Shown here: positions 6,766 through 32,227 of the stretch, in pieces
Layout of the letters: each line of letters begins with the position of its first letter
Numbering within the stretch: position 1 is the first letter of the stretch
Source: Candidatus Nitrospira nitrosa
Lineage (GTDB): Bacteria > Nitrospirota > Nitrospiria > Nitrospirales > Nitrospiraceae
DNA: 64,000 bases
Assembly: GCF_001458735.1 (NCBI RefSeq)
Contig: NZ_CZQA01000009.1
Coordinates: 248,001 to 312,000 of the forward strand
Direction of reading: 5' to 3'
Notes under the pieces: generated by a model
Databases searched by the model: none
Seen by the model: the letters and a program-made list of their open reading frames with translations, nothing else
What the model was told of the DNA's origin: nothing
Made by a program: the position numbers and the translations under genes

Positions 6766-6797
6766 GGGAATCTTTGCGGACAAGATTTTCTCCTGTG

Positions 6798-6826
6798 TTT
6801 ACAAGGGAGATGGACTCTCCTATAGT
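6798..6826 (+). promoter_or_regulatory. Predicted sigma70 promoter of lptF
   Basis: TTTACA (6798-6803), a 17-nt spacer and TATAGT (6821-6826), five of six consensus bases in each box. The in-frame ATG at 6810 lies inside this promoter, which argues for the downstream GTG at 6855 as the real lptF start. The divergent csp promoter is about 33 bp away. Confidence 0.6.
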
Positions 6827-6854
6827 GTCCATAATTTCTCCGCCTGAAAACTCT

Positions 6855-7946
6855 GTGATCTTACGCACACTACTCGATCGCTACATCTTCACCGAGCTTC
6901 TTACTCCCTTCGGGCTCAGCCTCGGGGCGCTCTGTTTTGTGATGCTCACGAGAGAACTCCTGCGTCTCGTCGAACTGCTCGTCTCAAAAGGAGTCGGGAT
7001 CTGGGCCGTCCTCAAAGTGATTGCCATGCTGCTTCCCTCTGGGCTCGTCCTGACGCTTCCCATCGCCGGACTGATCGCTTCGGTCACCGCCTTTGGCCGG
7101 TTGTCTTTCGATAAGGAACTGGTCGCCATGCGAGCTGCGGGGCTCAGCCTCGTTCGCCTTGCACAACCGGTACTCCTGTTTTCCGTCTGCGTGTTCACAT
7201 TAACGTTGGTCTTATCGCAGTGGGGACAACCTTGGAGCTCGCTCAATCTGAAGAAGGTGGCGCTCAATCTCTTGAAGGACCAGCTCGCCCTCGCTCTCGA
7301 ACGCGGCACGTTCAACGAACCGATCCCGCACATGATGATTTATGTTCCAGAAGCCGAGCCGGATCGTCCGACTCCCGGCATCTTCATCTCGGATGAACGC
7401 CTCCCCAATGAACCCCGCGTCATTGTGGCGGAACACTATCGGATTTTCATGGATGCTCAGCATGACCACGTGGCACTCCAGTTGGAGAACGGCATGATTC
7501 ATAGCCGTCCTCCTCAGATCGACCAGTCCCAGCAGATTGCCTTCGCCAGCTATGACATCAAGATCAACTTGAACCTCAGTAGTTACTCGGCGACCGAGGA
7601 ACGCCCTTCGTACGAGCAAATTACTGCGCGCCTCGCTGAAACCGACGGCAAAGACGCCGGCGCGCTTCGGCGAATGATGGAATATTATCGAGACTTGGCC
7701 TTCCCAACGGCCTCTCTGGTATTTTGCCTCCTCGGCGTACCGGTTGGAATCGTCTCGAAACGCTCCGGTCGTGTTGGTGGCTTCGCCGTTGGTGTCGGCA
7801 TCATCATCGCGTTCTACATCTTGAATGTCGGATGCGACTTTCTGGTGACGGCCCTGATCCTTCATCCATTCTGGGGCGCGTGGCTGCCCAACATTATTTT
7901 TATGATCATCACCCTGGTTCTGTTCTACCGCGTGAGCAAGCACTAA
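6855..7946 (+). CDS. lptF: LPS export ABC transporter permease LptF
   Basis: Inner-membrane subunit of the LptB2FG transporter, which extracts lipopolysaccharide and feeds it to the Lpt bridge. It is a YjgP/YjgQ-family protein with an N-terminal membrane block (LLDRYIFTELLTPFGLSLGALCFVML), a large periplasmic beta-jellyroll domain in the middle (about residues 130-270) and a C-terminal membrane block (AFPTASLVFCLLGVPVGIVSKRSGRVGGFAVG). Starting at GTG 6855 gives 363 residues with the normal family N-terminus; an ATG at 6810 is also in frame but lies within a good promoter. lptG follows after 4 bp. Its partners lptA, lptB and lptC are not in the window. Confidence 0.92.
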   Translation: MILRTLLDRYIFTELLTPFGLSLGALCFVMLTRELLRLVELLVSKGVGIWAVLKVIAMLLPSGLVLTLPIAGLIASVTAFGRLSFDKELVAMRAAGLSLVRLAQPVLLFSVCVFTLTLVLSQWGQPWSSLNLKKVALNLLKDQLALALERGTFNEPIPHMMIYVPEAEPDRPTPGIFISDERLPNEPRVIVAEHYRIFMDAQHDHVALQLENGMIHSRPPQIDQSQQIAFASYDIKINLNLSSYSATEERPSYEQITARLAETDGKDAGALRRMMEYYRDLAFPTASLVFCLLGVPVGIVSKRSGRVGGFAVGVGIIIAFYILNVGCDFLVTALILHPFWGAWLPNIIFMIITLVLFYRVSKH

Positions 7947-7950
7947 CACG

Positions 7951-9042
7951 ATGACGATTCTGTTCCGATATATCCTTCGCGAATATTCGAAAATATTCGG
8001 CATGTGTTTCTCCGGCCTGGTGACGATCTATTTAGTCATCGATTTTTTCGAAAAAGTCCGTCGCTTTCTTCGCTATGAATCTGGCATCCTGCCGATTCTG
8101 TTGTACTTTGCACTGAAGATCCCCTCCATTTCTTTCCAAGTCGCGCCGTTTGCCGTTCTCGTCGCCACGCTGCTGACGCTCGGCCTTCTCTCACGCAGTA
8201 ACGAGATCACGGCGATGCGAAGCTGTGGGGTGAGTTTGCTCTGGATGTCCTCCCCCTTTCTCCTCTTCGCCAGCGGTCTCTCGTTCATCCTCTTCAGCTT
8301 CAGTTCAACGATCATCCCCCTCGCCTCCGAAAAGGCCGAGGAGGTCCGTGCGGTCCAAATCGAGCAGAAACCGGTGCCTGTCACCGTCACCGCCGTTCAA
8401 CCGTGGGCTCGGATCAGCGCGAATAGCCTCATGAAGATTACCGAAATCGATGCGGAAGGTAAGACCCTGCGAGGGATACGTATTTTTTATTTTCGCCCAC
8501 CGTTCCAGCTCGACCGGATTACAGAGGCGGAGGAAGCCCGCTATGCGACGAACGGCTGGGTCCTTCGCAACGGACATCACCGCCAATTTCACGAGAATGA
8601 GACCGTAGAGCTCGCTCGATTTTCTGAACAGGCCATCAACCTTCCGCTCATTCCAGACGATTTCTCAAGTTCCCTCGTGGGCAACTCAGAAGCGATGACC
8701 TTCAGGGAAATTCACGATTACCTTGAGCGCTTTCGCGAGGAAGGATTTACGTTTTCCCGTCTGCTGACGGACTACTATGATCGTATGGCGTTGCCCTTGG
8801 TCACCATCGTGATGGTCCTTGTCGGCATTGCGTTGAGTCTCCGGCGGAGCGGAGTTCGTGGAGGCAGTATGACGGTGGGAATCGGGCAAGCCTTCATTGT
8901 GGGATTTTGCTATTGGACCACGCATTCCGTTGCCATCGCGTTGGGAAGAGGAGGAGCACTGGCACCTGTGTTAGCCGGTTGGATGGCGAACGCCCTCTTC
9001 TTGAGCTTCGGTCTGTATTTATTGCTAAAAGTTCGCCATTAG
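7951..9042 (+). CDS. lptG: LPS export ABC transporter permease LptG
   Basis: A 363-residue partner of LptF in LptB2FG. It begins MTILFRYILREY, the typical LptG start, followed by transmembrane segments, the periplasmic jellyroll domain (about residues 130-265) and a C-terminal block with PLVTIVMVLVGIALSLRRSG. It is encoded 4 bp after lptF and surely cotranscribed. The lptF/lptG tandem order is the usual one. The Gly/Arg-containing cytoplasmic coupling segment RSGVRGGS is present. Confidence 0.93.
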   Translation: MTILFRYILREYSKIFGMCFSGLVTIYLVIDFFEKVRRFLRYESGILPILLYFALKIPSISFQVAPFAVLVATLLTLGLLSRSNEITAMRSCGVSLLWMSSPFLLFASGLSFILFSFSSTIIPLASEKAEEVRAVQIEQKPVPVTVTAVQPWARISANSLMKITEIDAEGKTLRGIRIFYFRPPFQLDRITEAEEARYATNGWVLRNGHHRQFHENETVELARFSEQAINLPLIPDDFSSSLVGNSEAMTFREIHDYLERFREEGFTFSRLLTDYYDRMALPLVTIVMVLVGIALSLRRSGVRGGSMTVGIGQAFIVGFCYWTTHSVAIALGRGGALAPVLAGWMANALFLSFGLYLLLKVRH

Positions 9043-9120: not shown

Positions 9121-10377
9121 ATGGCCTCACGTGTTGTGATCACAGGTCTTGGAGTGATATCTCCGATCGGCATCGGTGTGAGCGAATTCTGGAAATCGGC
9201 GCTGACCGGTCGTTCGGGAGTAACCGCCATTCCCTCCCTAGGGTGGGCTCCCATGTCAGACTACCGTTCTCGAGTAGCCGGTCAGGTCCATAATTTCTCA
9301 CCAGAGCAATACCTGACCGCCACCCAAGCCAGTCGCGTCGATCGGTACGCACAGTTTGCCTTAGTTGCTGCGAAGGAAGCGTTGGCCGACGCTGACCTCA
9401 ATATGGCAAAAGAACGCCCTCACCGCGTGGGAGTCATCGTCGGAGCGGGCATGGGCGGGATGGTCATGGGTGAGCGTGAGATTACACAACTCTTTAAAAC
9501 CCAACGCCCCCATCGTGTCCATCCCAATTTTATTCCGACCATTACCCTCAATTCCGCCTCGGGGATTGTTGCCATGGCGCATGGAGCCAAAGGCCCCAAT
9601 CTCACCATCTCAACGGCCTGTTCGTCCAGTGCTCATGCCCTCGGCCAGGCGCTCCAGTGCATTCGTACCGGTCAGGCCGATGTCGTCATTGCCGTGGGCG
9701 CCGATGCCAGCATTACCCCGCTGGTGTTTGCAGGGTTCTGCTCACTGCGCGCCCTATCCAGTGAGTTTAACGATGCTCCTGAACGCGCGTCGCGCCCCTT
9801 CGACCGACGTCGGGACGGCTTCGTCATGGGTGAGGGGGCAGCCGCACTCATCGTGGAATCCTTGGCGCATGCCAAAAAACGGAAGGCCAGAGTGTATGCC
9901 GAGCTCGCGGGCTATGCAGCGACGAGTGAGGCCTACCACATGGTGATTCCTCAGGAAGACGGGCAAGAAATCAGCATGACCATGAAGATCGGCCTGGAAT
10001 CCGCCGGGATCGGCTCCGAACAGGTCGACTACATTAATGCCCATGCGACCTCAACAACGATCGGAGATGCCGTCGAGACAAAGGCGATTCGGAACCTCTT
10101 CAAGAATCGCGCGGACAAGATTGCCATCAGTGCCACAAAGTCCCTCGTCGGCCATACGCTTGGCGCGGCCGGTGCGATCGGGGCCGTTGCGACCACGATG
10201 GCGATCCATACCGGGCAGATTCACCCGACCGCCAACTATGAAGAACCTGACCCAGACTGTCGGTTGGACGGCATCCGTCAGGCGGTGCAAGAACGAAAGA
10301 TTCGGTATGCCCTCTTAAATGCATTTGGATTCGGCAGCAACAATGCCACTGTGGTGTTCAAGAAATTTGTGGCGTAA
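9121..10377 (+). CDS. Beta-ketoacyl-ACP synthase II-like condensing enzyme
   Basis: A 418-residue thiolase-fold enzyme of the FabF/KAS II family, which condenses an acyl chain with malonyl-ACP. The Cys-His-His triad is readable: Cys167 in TACSSSAHAL, His308 in INAHATSTT and His345 in LVGHTLGAAG. The C-terminal FGFGSNNATVVF is the standard end. AAGGAGGG lies just before the ATG. The next genes are an acyl carrier protein and lpxD, so this copy may be dedicated to a special acyl chain for the envelope and may not be the housekeeping FabF. That is inference from context. Confidence 0.92.
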   Translation: MASRVVITGLGVISPIGIGVSEFWKSALTGRSGVTAIPSLGWAPMSDYRSRVAGQVHNFSPEQYLTATQASRVDRYAQFALVAAKEALADADLNMAKERPHRVGVIVGAGMGGMVMGEREITQLFKTQRPHRVHPNFIPTITLNSASGIVAMAHGAKGPNLTISTACSSSAHALGQALQCIRTGQADVVIAVGADASITPLVFAGFCSLRALSSEFNDAPERASRPFDRRRDGFVMGEGAAALIVESLAHAKKRKARVYAELAGYAATSEAYHMVIPQEDGQEISMTMKIGLESAGIGSEQVDYINAHATSTTIGDAVETKAIRNLFKNRADKIAISATKSLVGHTLGAAGAIGAVATTMAIHTGQIHPTANYEEPDPDCRLDGIRQAVQERKIRYALLNAFGFGSNNATVVFKKFVA

Positions 10378-10436: not shown

Positions 10437-10457
10437 TCCACTGAAGGAGTACTCATA

Positions 10458-10916
10458 ATGACTGAGCGGATCGACCCTGCGATCACAGAGAAAATCGTGC
10501 ATGCCTTGGCCACCTACCTGAAACGAGACCCTGCGTCCATTACGGAGAGCCACCACCTCCGCGATGATCTCGGACTCGACTCAGTCGCCGTCATCGAATT
10601 ACTGTTCGAGATCGAAGAACGGTTTAAACTTCAAATTCCCGATCAAGATCTTCCAGGGCTCAGTACCGTCGGATCCGTGGCTGCCTACGTCCAACGGCAG
10701 CTCGCTGCACAGCCGTCGAATGCTAAATCGGAATCACTCAAGCCAGCAACACCCTCCAAGGCTACATCGAAAAAACCTGCCTCGAAGAAGGCACCCCTGT
10801 CGCGATCGGCTTCAAAGAAGCCCTCGCCTCCAAAATCCAAACCTGCCTCCTCGAAGAAGCCCAAGGCGACGTCGTCGGTGGTCTCAAAGACCAAGAAGAA
10901 GGGTGCAACACGATGA
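10458..10916 (+). CDS. Acyl carrier protein with lysine/proline/serine-rich C-terminal tail
   Basis: A 152-residue protein. Residues 1-76 are a complete acyl carrier domain, with the phosphopantetheine site Ser42 in [12 protein letters not shown] and the usual acidic helix after it ([15 protein letters not shown]). Residues from about 78 to the end form a strongly basic, low-complexity tail of K, S, P and A repeats ([29 protein letters not shown]), resembling histone-H1-like tails. Ordinary ACPs are about 75-80 residues and acidic, so the tail is unusual. GAAGGAG precedes the ATG. The stop overlaps the lpxD start by 4 nt, so the two are translationally coupled. It may deliver a specific hydroxyacyl chain to LpxD; this is inference. 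Confidence 0.85.
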
Positions 10917-12004
10917 GCAAGCCTCAACTCCCTACCCCACTTACGCTCGCCCAAATCCACGAAGTCGTTGGCGGCACCGTTCACGGTGACCTCCAGACGC
11001 AGGTCTCTGCGCTGACCAGCCTCAGCCAAGCCAACTCCTGTGCCTTGTCCTTCGTGACTAACGATAAAATAGCCAAGGCTGCTGGGAACGTGCAGGTTGC
11101 GGCCCTTCTGATCCATCGATATCAGCCGGATCTGACCACACCCCAAATCGTGGTCGACAATCCCTTGTTGGCCTTCGCGCGCGTTGCACAAACGTTTTTT
11201 GTCCAGACCCCGCCTCCCAGAGGCATTGACGACCATGTCATGCAAGGGACTGATGTACGAATCGGATCCGACCCGTCTATTTGGCCGTTTGTGACGCTCG
11301 GCGACCGCGTCACGATTGGGAACCGCGTGACTCTCTACCCGGGAGTCTTTGTTGGATCAGATTCAACGATCGGGGATGATTGCGTGCTCTATCCCAATGT
11401 TGTAGTCCGGGAAGGTTGTTCCCTTGGCGCTCGCGTGATCGTCCATAGCTGCACGGTCATCGGGGCTGATGGGTTCGGCTATGTCCAACATCAGGGCCGG
11501 CACCATAAGGTCCCGCAACTCGGCGGCGTCATCATTGAAGACGATGTGGAACTCGGCGCAAATGTGACGATTGATCGCGCCACGTTGGGCCATACCCTGA
11601 TCAAACAGGGAACCAAAGTCGATAATTTGGTCCAAATTGCTCACAATGTCACCGTCGGAGAGCACTGCATTCTGGTCGCGCAGGTAGGTATCGCCGGAAG
11701 TACGACCATCGGCCGGTACGTCATGATCGGTGGTCAGGCGGGACTTGCCGATCACCTCACAATTGGTGATCAGGTAATGATCGCGGCCAAATCGGGAGTC
11801 AATCGCAGTATCGAGCCCAATCAAATCGTCGGTGGCATCCCCGCGATGCCACGAGACAAGGCTCTCAGGATCCAGGGTGGGATCTTTCAGCTTCCTGAAA
11901 CACGAGAGATGGTCCGTAAACTAGAAGAGCGTGTCACCACTCTGGAGCGCCAAGCCCAGACAGCAGCACGACGAACATCCGGAAAAAAGAAGCGTCGTGC
12001 TTGA
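10913..12004 (+). CDS. lpxD: UDP-3-O-(3-hydroxyacyl)glucosamine N-acyltransferase LpxD
   Basis: A 363-residue third-step enzyme of lipid A synthesis, moving a 3-hydroxyacyl chain from ACP to the 2-amino group of UDP-3-O-acylglucosamine. It has an N-terminal uridine-binding domain (residues about 1-105, ending [12 protein letters not shown]) and a left-handed parallel beta-helix of hexapeptide repeats ([11 protein letters not shown]...[14 protein letters not shown]). The [17 protein letters not shown] segment carries the family's conserved catalytic-region histidine. [14 protein letters not shown] and [10 protein letters not shown] are further LpxD signatures. The C-terminus ends in a short basic coil (SGKKKRRA). 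The ATG overlaps the ACP stop. Confidence 0.95.
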
Positions 12005-12015
12005 CGATCCATCCC

Positions 12016-12549
12016 TCATGACTTTGCAACGGTGATCACTCGCCGCCAGAGGAACATCTTGGCCCAATAGAATCCCGCCCATGGCATGAGAATGGCTGGA
12101 ATCATGTGCACATGGCCATACGAAAACGCGGCAACGGCGCTTCCCACAAGCAACAGGATACCCAGACCGTAGGCCAGGGGAATCAGTTGACGTCCTGAGT
12201 GTTCAATGTCCGGGGCTACGGATTGTTTCTTGAGCTTGCCCTTCTGTCTGTTCAAACCATCCCGCATCCGTGCGGCCAGAACCTCCGGAAACTCTCGGAG
12301 AAGATACCGCTGATACAGGGTTTGTGCCGCTCCGAGACCTATCCCGGACAAAAATAGACCTGAGCTTTGATAAAAGGTATCCCAGGTATAACTCTCAGTC
12401 CCGAGCAACTGATAGCCAAGCCCCCCAACACTCCCAACTAGACAGACCAGACCGAGAAAGCCGGATGGAAATAGAATATACGTCTTCACATACTCGAGCG
12501 CCTGCTGCATCGTATGCTGCGGGTGATTCACCGTAATAAGTTTTGGCAC
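12016..12549 (-). CDS. Membrane protein of unknown function
   Basis: A 177-residue protein with about four hydrophobic segments in two pairs: FPSGFLGLVCLVGSVGGLGYQLL and SGLFLSGIGLGAAQTL, then a basic loop, then AYGLGILLLVGSAVAAFSYGH and MIPAILMPWAGFYWAKMF. The start is GTG at 12549 with AAAGG seven bases upstream; a later ATG at codon 14 is possible. No family was recognised. It is convergent with lpxD (11 bp between stops) and has no evident operon partner. Confidence 0.6.
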   Translation of the reverse strand: MPKLITVNHPQHTMQQALEYVKTYILFPSGFLGLVCLVGSVGGLGYQLLGTESYTWDTFYQSSGLFLSGIGLGAAQTLYQRYLLREFPEVLAARMRDGLNRQKGKLKKQSVAPDIEHSGRQLIPLAYGLGILLLVGSAVAAFSYGHVHMIPAILMPWAGFYWAKMFLWRRVITVAKS

Positions 12550-30959: not shown

Positions 30960-31533
30960 TGCGTTCCCATAAAAACTCAGGCTCGCCCTGTGTTTTGGCG
31001 ACCCAACGAGCCAGGACAAAGAGGGTATCGCTCAGGCGATTGATAAACTTGATGATCTGCGGATCAACCGGCTCGGTCTTAGAGAGCGCCACACACAATC
31101 GTTCAGCTCGACGACAAATCGTCCTCGCCTGATGCAAAAAACTGGAAACTTTCCCGCCACCAGGGAGAATAAACTCTTTCAGTGGTTCCAAAGTCTTCTG
31201 GCATCGATCAATCGTTTTTTCGAGGCGTGTGACATCGCTCGCCATCACCTGCGGCATGTTCTTGAACGTCTGCCCCGGTGCCGTCGCAAGAATGCTCCCG
31301 ACATCAAAAAGCTTGTTCTGCACCCATCTCAGCTCATCCTCCAACTGGCCGGCCTGTTTGTTGTGCCCCCTCGTTTCGCTATTGAGCACCCGGACGACTC
31401 CGATTGAAGAATTCAATTCATCGACGGTGCCGTAGGCTTCGACTCGAAGACTGTCTTTCCACACCTGTTGGCCGCCGGCGAGCCTGGTCTTTCCCGCGTC
31501 TCCCGTTCTGGTATAAACTTTCGTGATTCTCAT
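30937..31533 (-). CDS. ATP:cob(I)alamin adenosyltransferase, PduO type
   Basis: 198 residues. It transfers the 5'-deoxyadenosyl group of ATP to cobalt. PduO-family motifs: KVYTRTGDAGKTRLAGG at the N-terminus, RVEAYGTVDELNSSIGVVR, FILPGGGKVSSFLHQARTICRRAER (cited from FILPGG) and FINRLSDTLFVLARW. The start is ATG 31533, inside the 3' end of bluB (116-nt overlap). A second, unrelated adenosyltransferase (CobO) is encoded about 1.7 kb upstream in the same operon. Confidence 0.94.
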   Translation of the reverse strand: MRITKVYTRTGDAGKTRLAGGQQVWKDSLRVEAYGTVDELNSSIGVVRVLNSETRGHNKQAGQLEDELRWVQNKLFDVGSILATAPGQTFKNMPQVMASDVTRLEKTIDRCQKTLEPLKEFILPGGGKVSSFLHQARTICRRAERLCVALSKTEPVDPQIIKFINRLSDTLFVLARWVAKTQGEPEFLWERNVAKKST

Positions 31534-32227
31534 ACCCGTCCCGCTCCTCCTCATCGGCGTAATTGCCCCACCCATCGTAATGAATCAGCCGGCTCACTGG
31601 AATCCGGTCCCGCCACCCCGCCGTCTCCAAATCAGGAGCTTGTTCAAATCTCGAGACATACCCCAAGCACAAATAGGCCAGAATCGTCACCGATTTAGGA
31701 ACACCAACCACTCGCTTCAACGCATTATGATCAAGAATACTGACCCAACCAACACCGATCCCTTCAGCTCTGGCCGCAAGCCAAAGATTTTGAACGGCAC
31801 AACAGGTACTGTAGAGATCCGTCGCACGCACCGTAGAACGACCAAGTACATCTGCCCCTCCACGCCTCCGACTACAGGTCACACACAGGTTGATCGGAGC
31901 CTCTTCGATCCCCTCCAGTTTCAATCGTCGGTAGAGATCGCCCTTCACACCTGTATAACGGCGTGCGGCTTCCGTATTGGCTTCAACGAATAACCGCTTC
32001 ACTGCGCGTTTCGTCGCCGCATTTCGTATCACCACAAAATCCCACGGCTGCATAAAGCCGACCGATCCGGCATGATGCGCCGCAGTCAACAGCCGCATCA
32101 TGACTGGGTCAGAGATTGGCCTCGGCAGAAAGTTTCGACGCACATCACGACGTTCAAAAATCGCCCGATAGACGGCATCCCGCTCTGAGCGGGAGAATTT
32201 GAGAGCATTGGCGGCTCGGCGCGTCAT
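31418..32227 (-). CDS. bluB: 5,6-Dimethylbenzimidazole synthase (BluB) with extra C-terminal tail
   Basis: 269 residues. BluB destroys reduced FMN with O2 to form the lower ligand of cobalamin. Nitroreductase-like features: YRAIFERRDVRRNFLPRPI, AAHHAGSVGFMQPWDFVVI, TVRATDLYSTCCAVQNLWLAARAEGIGVGWVSI (cited from DLYSTCCAVQ) and YLCLGYV. The recognisable core ends near DGWGNYADEEERD. The last about 38 residues are Arg/Ser-rich, are read out of frame with the downstream adenosyltransferase, and look like a stop-codon-loss extension. The product implies the cell can make true B12 when oxygen is present. Confidence 0.93.
   Translation of the reverse strand: MTRRAANALKFSRSERDAVYRAIFERRDVRRNFLPRPISDPVMMRLLTAAHHAGSVGFMQPWDFVVIRNAATKRAVKRLFVEANTEAARRYTGVKGDLYRRLKLEGIEEAPINLCVTCSRRRGGADVLGRSTVRATDLYSTCCAVQNLWLAARAEGIGVGWVSILDHNALKRVVGVPKSVTILAYLCLGYVSRFEQAPDLETAGWRDRIPVSRLIHYDGWGNYADEEERDGYENHESLYQNGRRGKDQARRRPTGVERQSSSRSLRHRR

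Follow-up and report, generated by a model that had tools for sequence, protein, structure and literature searches.

Acyl carrier proteins (ACPs) are, in textbook terms, small, acidic and freely diffusing carriers that are recognised through their negative charge. Rhizobia and their relatives have a specialised second ACP for lipid A, AcpXL, which is accompanied by its own elongation genes and, to our knowledge, carries no lysine tail. In E. coli and P. aeruginosa, the C-terminal helix of LpxD constitutes an ACP recognition domain (PMC6820557). Basic tails have been studied in another context, that of AlgP, whose tail domain is required for granule positioning (PMC9239181).

The window, i.e. 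the whole stretch of 64,000 nucleotides analyzed here, belongs to contig C9. The genome measures 4.42 Mb, and the relatives closest to it are Nitrospira metagenome-assembled genomes (MAGs). Profile matches established the gene order lptF-lptG-fabF-ACP-lpxD, with the following features (window coordinates):

6774-7946, + strand: lptF, LPS export permease, whose start codon may lie further in (PF03739, 264 bits; best NCBIfam match TIGR04407, 229 versus a cut-off of 230)
7951-9042, + strand: lptG, LPS export permease (TIGR04408, 273.9 bits, cut-off 240)
9121-10377, + strand: fabF, a second beta-ketoacyl-ACP synthase II (TIGR03150, 515.6 bits, cut-off 493.75)
10444-10449, + strand: AAGGAG, the ribosome binding site for the ACP (sequence)
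10458-10916, + strand: lysine-tailed ACP, 152 aa (PF00550, 53 bits; orthologues in the same place in about 100 Nitrospirales loci)
10458-10709, + strand: ACP domain, residues 1-84, four helices, net charge -6 (AlphaFold2 helices; charge)
10581-10583, + strand: Ser42 codon of the ACP (sequence)
10710-10913, + strand: predicted disordered Lys/Ser/Ala/Pro tail, residues 85-152, net charge +19 (pLDDT; conserved charge; purifying selection on K/R)
10913-12004, + strand: lpxD, with an ATGA overlap with the ACP stop codon at 10913-10916 (TIGR01853, 362.4 bits, cut-off 242.5)
11948-12001, + strand: basic C-terminal tail of LpxD, residues 346-363, net charge +8, following the C-terminal helix (sequence; charge)

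The ACP open reading frame starts with the ATG at 10458 and ends with the TGA at 10914-10916. A preliminary description of this DNA had assigned the ACP to positions 10689-10916, a span that is in frame and covers only codons 78-152, i.e. the end of helix IV and the tail. The complete ACP domain with Ser42 that it reported was borne out: PF00550 matched residues 11-78 well above its gathering cut-off of 20.8 bits, and Ser42 lies within a DSV motif whose serine is invariant in 35 homologues. AlphaFold2 modelled the domain as helices 7-21, 42-56, 62-67 and 71-84 with a pLDDT of about 90; past residue 90 the pLDDT was about 43-53, so that the tail is predicted to be disordered. The charges of the two parts agree with the histone-like basic tail of the preliminary description. 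The domain has a pI of 4.8 and the tail, rich in K, S, A and P, a pI of 11.5, giving the whole protein a net charge of +13 and a pI of 10.0. As judged from the translation, the acidic residues of helix II are retained. The coupling of the ACP gene to lpxD and its location between a KAS II gene and lpxD, both also proposed earlier, are substantiated by the ATGA overlap and by TIGR03150 and TIGR01853 scores above cut-off.

The translated FabF contains all three motifs of the Cys-His-His triad (TACSS, NAHATST and GHTLGAAG) and has a net charge of +6. It is distinct from the housekeeping FabF adjoining AcpP, with which it shares 43% identity (L145). The LpxD core (residues 1-345) is mildly acidic, with a net charge of -5, and its structure model, although of low quality (pLDDT 58), is consistent with a C-terminal helix. 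Facing lpxD, a 177-aa open reading frame with no Pfam or NCBIfam match occupies positions 12016-12549 of the - strand. On contig C1 of the same genome, a tail-free acidic AcpP lies beside its fabF (AcpP at G000:C1:1783919) and is about 32% identical to the tailed ACP. The lipid A genes fabZ-lpxA-lpxI-lpxB (fabZ and lpxI named from position and sequence reading) are located on contig C8, unlinked to the ACP locus. When the tail sequence was searched against the genome, no second copy of note turned up. Elsewhere on the contig of the window, an NRPS/PKS-like multimodular cluster with at least 12 carrier domains in frames of 1600-2960 aa was found at G000:C9:350000-397000, 38-85 kb downstream of the window end.

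The preliminary description had suggested looking for the same ACP-tail fusion next to lpxD in related genomes, and it was found in about 100 Nitrospirales loci. Protein searches retrieved the same arrangement in some 50 loci of Nitrospira MAGs and some 45 loci of other genera or of a second family, and every intact orthologous reading frame ended in a basic tail. The lptF-lptG-fabF-ACP-lpxD synteny extends throughout one family (f1) and to five genomes of the second (f2). In f2, the fabF-ACP pair is present in some genomes only, lptG being elsewhere followed directly by lpxD (L177, L178, L180, L181 and L185-L187); in genus g14 of this family, LpxD lacks both the adjoining fabF-ACP and its own tail. 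LpxD keeps its basic tail in most Nitrospirales that have the tailed ACP, and lacks it in the outgroup classes. In the other classes of Nitrospirota, lpxD follows a skp-like gene, and no such tail was found on their LpxD or ACPs; likewise, no basic-tailed ACP appeared among the non-Nitrospirota matches listed in the protein search for relatives. The simplest history is that a fabF-ACP pair joined lptG-lpxD in the Nitrospirales ancestor and was later lost in some lineages.

Some loci depart from the common arrangement. Tails are disrupted in two relatives (L042/G149 and L043). At L042 (G149:C12:185333-213530), the ACP gene is split within the tail, and the remaining part reappears, together with lpxD, 27 kb farther along the same strand; the cause is an insertion of this length or else a misjoin at a tail repeat of 21 bases. 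In another Nitrospira MAG, two small related ACPs (L063:747-1058 and L063:3094-3384), the first bearing a short basic tail, flank a 566-aa reading frame at a locus that contains neither fabF nor lpxD. Genus g4 (G267:C103, G270:C61, G271:C205 and G273:C44) has an extra ACP paralogue of about 105 aa, 43-47% identical, beside the lpxD-linked ACP.

The 95 distinct tails compared gain and lose repeats and are very variable in length (19-102 aa, median 64), with net charges of +5 to +27, equivalent to 0.21-0.42 charges per residue. Net charge scaled with tail length (rho 0.88), and 98% of the tails have at least three K/R among the last six residues. Their composition is 25% K, 21% A, 17% S, 12% P and 10% T, with a K/(K+R) ratio of 0.88 and no aromatic residues. 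Pooled dN/dS over 19 disjoint close pairs was 0.055 for the ACP domain versus 0.30 for the tail. Substitutions in 11 gapless close pairs were then set against a neutral expectation derived from fourfold sites with separate rates for transitions and transversions, a model that leaves out context effects and was applied to pairs uncorrected for recombination, although the effect is large. Relative to neutrality, the rate of change was 0.11 for K/R codons of the tail, 0.65 for its other codons and 0.02-0.05 for codons of the domain. K-to-E replacements, expected to be as frequent as K-to-R, were never observed in the tail, versus 16.7 expected, and changes to or from D/E amounted to 1.5 versus 22 expected. 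The low rate of change at K/R codons, together with the missing K-to-E and D/E changes, thus demonstrates selection for positive charge in the tail, while residue order and length drift. Compensation of core charge by the tail was considered and discarded, since the two charges showed no significant correlation across the 95 variants (rho 0.18, p 0.08).

Across the family, the lptFG-fabF-ACP-lpxD arrangement links the tailed ACP genetically to lipid A genes, and gene loss was analyzed in the 88 f1 genomes, 74 of which are at least 95% complete. Among the latter, the ACP was absent or broken in all three genomes that lack lpxA (G105, G159 and G163) versus one of the 71 others (Fisher p 6e-5), although the events are few and partly related, two of the three genomes falling in one genus, so that perhaps only two are independent. 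The one lpxA-bearing genome of this set without an intact ACP, G258, is assembled in 610 contigs. Over all 88 genomes the association was weaker (Fisher p 0.003), with exceptions in both directions among less complete genomes: G263, G268 and G279 have the ACP without lpxA, and G258, G272 and G282 have lpxA without the ACP. Two of the three highly complete genomes without lpxA are 98-99% complete and lack lpxD besides the tailed ACP. In the third, the reduced 1.7 Mb genome G163, only the first 11 codons of fabF remain, joined in frame to the ACP domain, and the tail has fallen out of frame; this locus is a decaying operon (L175, G163:C5, with the reading frame at locus positions 1166-1447). Synteny and co-loss combined support, without proving, that the tailed ACP would be dedicated to lipid A.

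The possibility that basic tails are a general habit of this genome was assessed in a census of 1161 mechanically called reading frames in 1.264 Mb (28.6% of the genome), and was rejected, such tails being few and that of the ACP extreme. In this census, the C-terminal 68-mer had a mean net charge of +1.0 (sd 4.2), and only the tailed ACP reached one as basic (+19) or as rich in lysine (18 K). A handful of others in the census carry tails that are shorter or not as basic. Basic ends were found on LpxD and GlmU, and also on a PF04185 phosphoesterase, on a barstar-like protein and on Lon, so that the ACP tail is not unique in kind. GlmU (L160:1475-3088, i.e. G000:C8:51475-53088, - strand), the producer of UDP-GlcNAc, from which lipid A synthesis starts, has a basic low-complexity C-terminal tail, and so do nearly all family members checked (L205-L234), with 34-76 aa past the core and net charges of +6 to +20, except for one shorter case at a contig end. 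LpxA, LpxB and FabZ, which act in this pathway too, are tail-free. The phosphoesterase (L154:4715-6217, i.e. G000:C1:1004715-1006217) ends in a K/R-rich tail of about 35 residues, and in the window BluB (5,6-dimethylbenzimidazole synthase; 31418-32227, - strand) has an arginine-rich C-terminal end.

The best explanation of these observations, which we put forward tentatively, is that the protein is a second, lipid-A-dedicated ACP of Nitrospirales whose tail tethers it electrostatically and without specificity, the anionic inner membrane being the most likely target. The acidic four-helix core would carry the acyl chain on the phosphopantetheine of Ser42, the neighbouring FabF would probably elongate the chain on the tailed ACP, and the resulting 3-hydroxyacyl chain would be handed to LpxD and probably also to LpxA. 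The disordered lysine-rich tail, acting through net charge and not through a defined sequence, would hold a dedicated ACP pool on a polyanionic surface, for which anionic inner-membrane lipid is the most likely candidate. LpxD, with its own polybasic tail, would be recruited to the same membrane, where the later steps of lipid A synthesis and export by LptFG take place. A non-specific tether is suggested because the length and order of the tail are free but its charge is kept, and since LpxD and GlmU are also basic-tailed, a common anionic target fits better than mutual docking. The most economical surface for lipid A enzymes to share would be, we infer, the inner membrane; the membrane target, the local concentration effect and the separate acyl pool are thus offered as a plausible reading. 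Several observations count against this reading. The tail lacks the aromatic or amphipathic elements that strong membrane anchors usually contain, and its composition is equally H1-like, as in proteins that bind DNA or polyphosphate. LpxA, LpxB and FabZ are without tails, whereas some unrelated proteins (the phosphoesterase, the barstar-like protein and Lon) have basic ones. Some f2 lineages have LpxD with no adjoining fabF-ACP, and LpxD as such therefore does not need the tailed ACP. A more far-reaching proposal, that Nitrospirales made a diffusing acyl carrier into one tethered to a surface, and that this lipid-A-only ACP together with polybasic-tailed LpxD and GlmU forms an electrostatically assembled lipid A station at the inner membrane, keeping LPS acyl chains apart from the housekeeping pool, is doubtful at present.

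Two other readings of the tail assign it a different partner. That it acts within or between proteins, masking the acidic ACP core (helix II) from housekeeping enzymes or binding LpxD, FabF or another partner on an acidic face, we regard as unlikely, though deserving of attention. Two ACPs in one cell need telling apart, the helix II acids persist, and the cores of both the ACP and LpxD are acidic. However, tail charge does not follow core charge across the variants, the free sequence and length of the tail leave no defined interface, and both FabF and the ACP-recognition end of LpxD are basic. The docking role envisaged in the preliminary description is retained in part: docking as such is plausible, tail charge being under strong selection, but direct docking of the tail to LpxD is weakened because the C-terminal helix of LpxD itself precedes a basic tail. 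It seems rather improbable that the tail is a DNA, RNA or polyphosphate binder like those of histone H1, AlgP or PhaF, which would place the ACP on the nucleoid or on polyphosphate granules, with a role in storage, spacing or segregation. The K/A/S/P/T-rich, lysine-dominated composition devoid of aromatics would suit such a binder, and AlgP and PhaF are precedents of bacterial non-histone proteins with tails of this kind (PMC9239181), but there is no known reason for having a lipid A carrier on DNA, the KPAA array is absent from the tail in the window, and the envelope is indicated both by the joint loss with lipid A genes and by the fact that LpxD and GlmU are tailed as well.

The remaining explanations account poorly for the substitution pattern or for the conservation of the tail. 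A tail that offers its lysines for pupylation, leading to proteasomal turnover, or for some other modification that adjusts the supply of lipid A is very improbable: Pup is encoded in the genome (PF05639, E 4e-21), but this function would need neither dozens of lysines nor the avoidance of Asp/Glu along the whole tail. Still slimmer is the chance of a low-complexity extension that is tolerated and does no more than bridge to lpxD for translational coupling. Such a bridge would agree with the ATGA overlap and with the gain and loss of repeats, but selection for Lys/Arg and against Asp/Glu is meaningless for coupling and largely refutes it, and in many tailed relatives (e.g. L044-L059) lpxD starts several bases past the stop codon with no overlap. 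As to an annotation or sequencing artefact, i.e. a frameshifted stop codon, which the preliminary description had named as a possible origin of the tail, its probability is close to nil: disruptions are limited to the two relatives mentioned above, and the same frame and basic composition recur in about 100 loci from independent assemblies, these intact orthologues refuting such an origin.

In the tailed ACP, the added tail flips the net charge of the whole protein, and selection has preserved the tail's basic nature throughout an order to which the main nitrite-oxidizing and comammox bacteria belong. This suggests that acyl carriers can be positioned within the cell, and removal of the tail or swapping of its charge would provide a simple system for asking whether lipid A synthesis is spatially organized. 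The dedicated-carrier reading predicts that LPS fatty acids of Nitrospira would be made by the FabF-ACP pair of this locus. Nothing was found on a lysine-tailed ACP or on LpxD-ACP of Nitrospira in open-licence papers.

The tailed ACP resembles AcpP and other PF00550 proteins in its complete PP-binding domain, the DSx motif with Ser42, the acidic core and the fabF neighbour, and differs from AcpP in the +19 disordered tail that renders the whole protein basic; it scored 52.5 with the housekeeping AcpP model TIGR00517, below the cut-off of 70.45. Its best PDB sequence match was mycobacterial AcpM of meromycolate extension (1klp, E 8.5e-13), which at 115 aa is also longer than AcpP at the C-terminus. 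Nevertheless, the match ends near residue 96, so that the tail is not common to both proteins, the pathway is another one, and the AcpM model NF040636 gave 51.4 bits versus a cut-off of 146. AcpXL is the counterpart in working, as a dedicated lipid A ACP, but, within the tests made, belongs to a different sequence family: the PRK06508 model, taken here to be of AcpXL type, gave 26.2 versus a cut-off of 83, and the partners of the tailed ACP would be LpxD and FabF. By these model scores, the protein falls outside AcpP, AcpM and PRK06508 and is best described as an ordinary ACP of a subfamily of its own. LpxD here shares with its E. coli and P. aeruginosa counterparts a C-terminal helical ACP recognition domain (PMC6820557). 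The differences are a basic tail of 18 residues after the helix and an ACP gene that goes with lpxD. AlgP and PhaF provide the parallel for the tail, being non-histone proteins with a low-complexity, K/A/P-rich, disordered and strongly basic C-terminal tail (PMC9239181); the ACP tail in the window is shorter, lacks tandem KPAA repeats and is attached to an ACP. By the tests run, the tailed ACP belongs to neither the AcpXL nor the AlgP class, though it may work like both combined.
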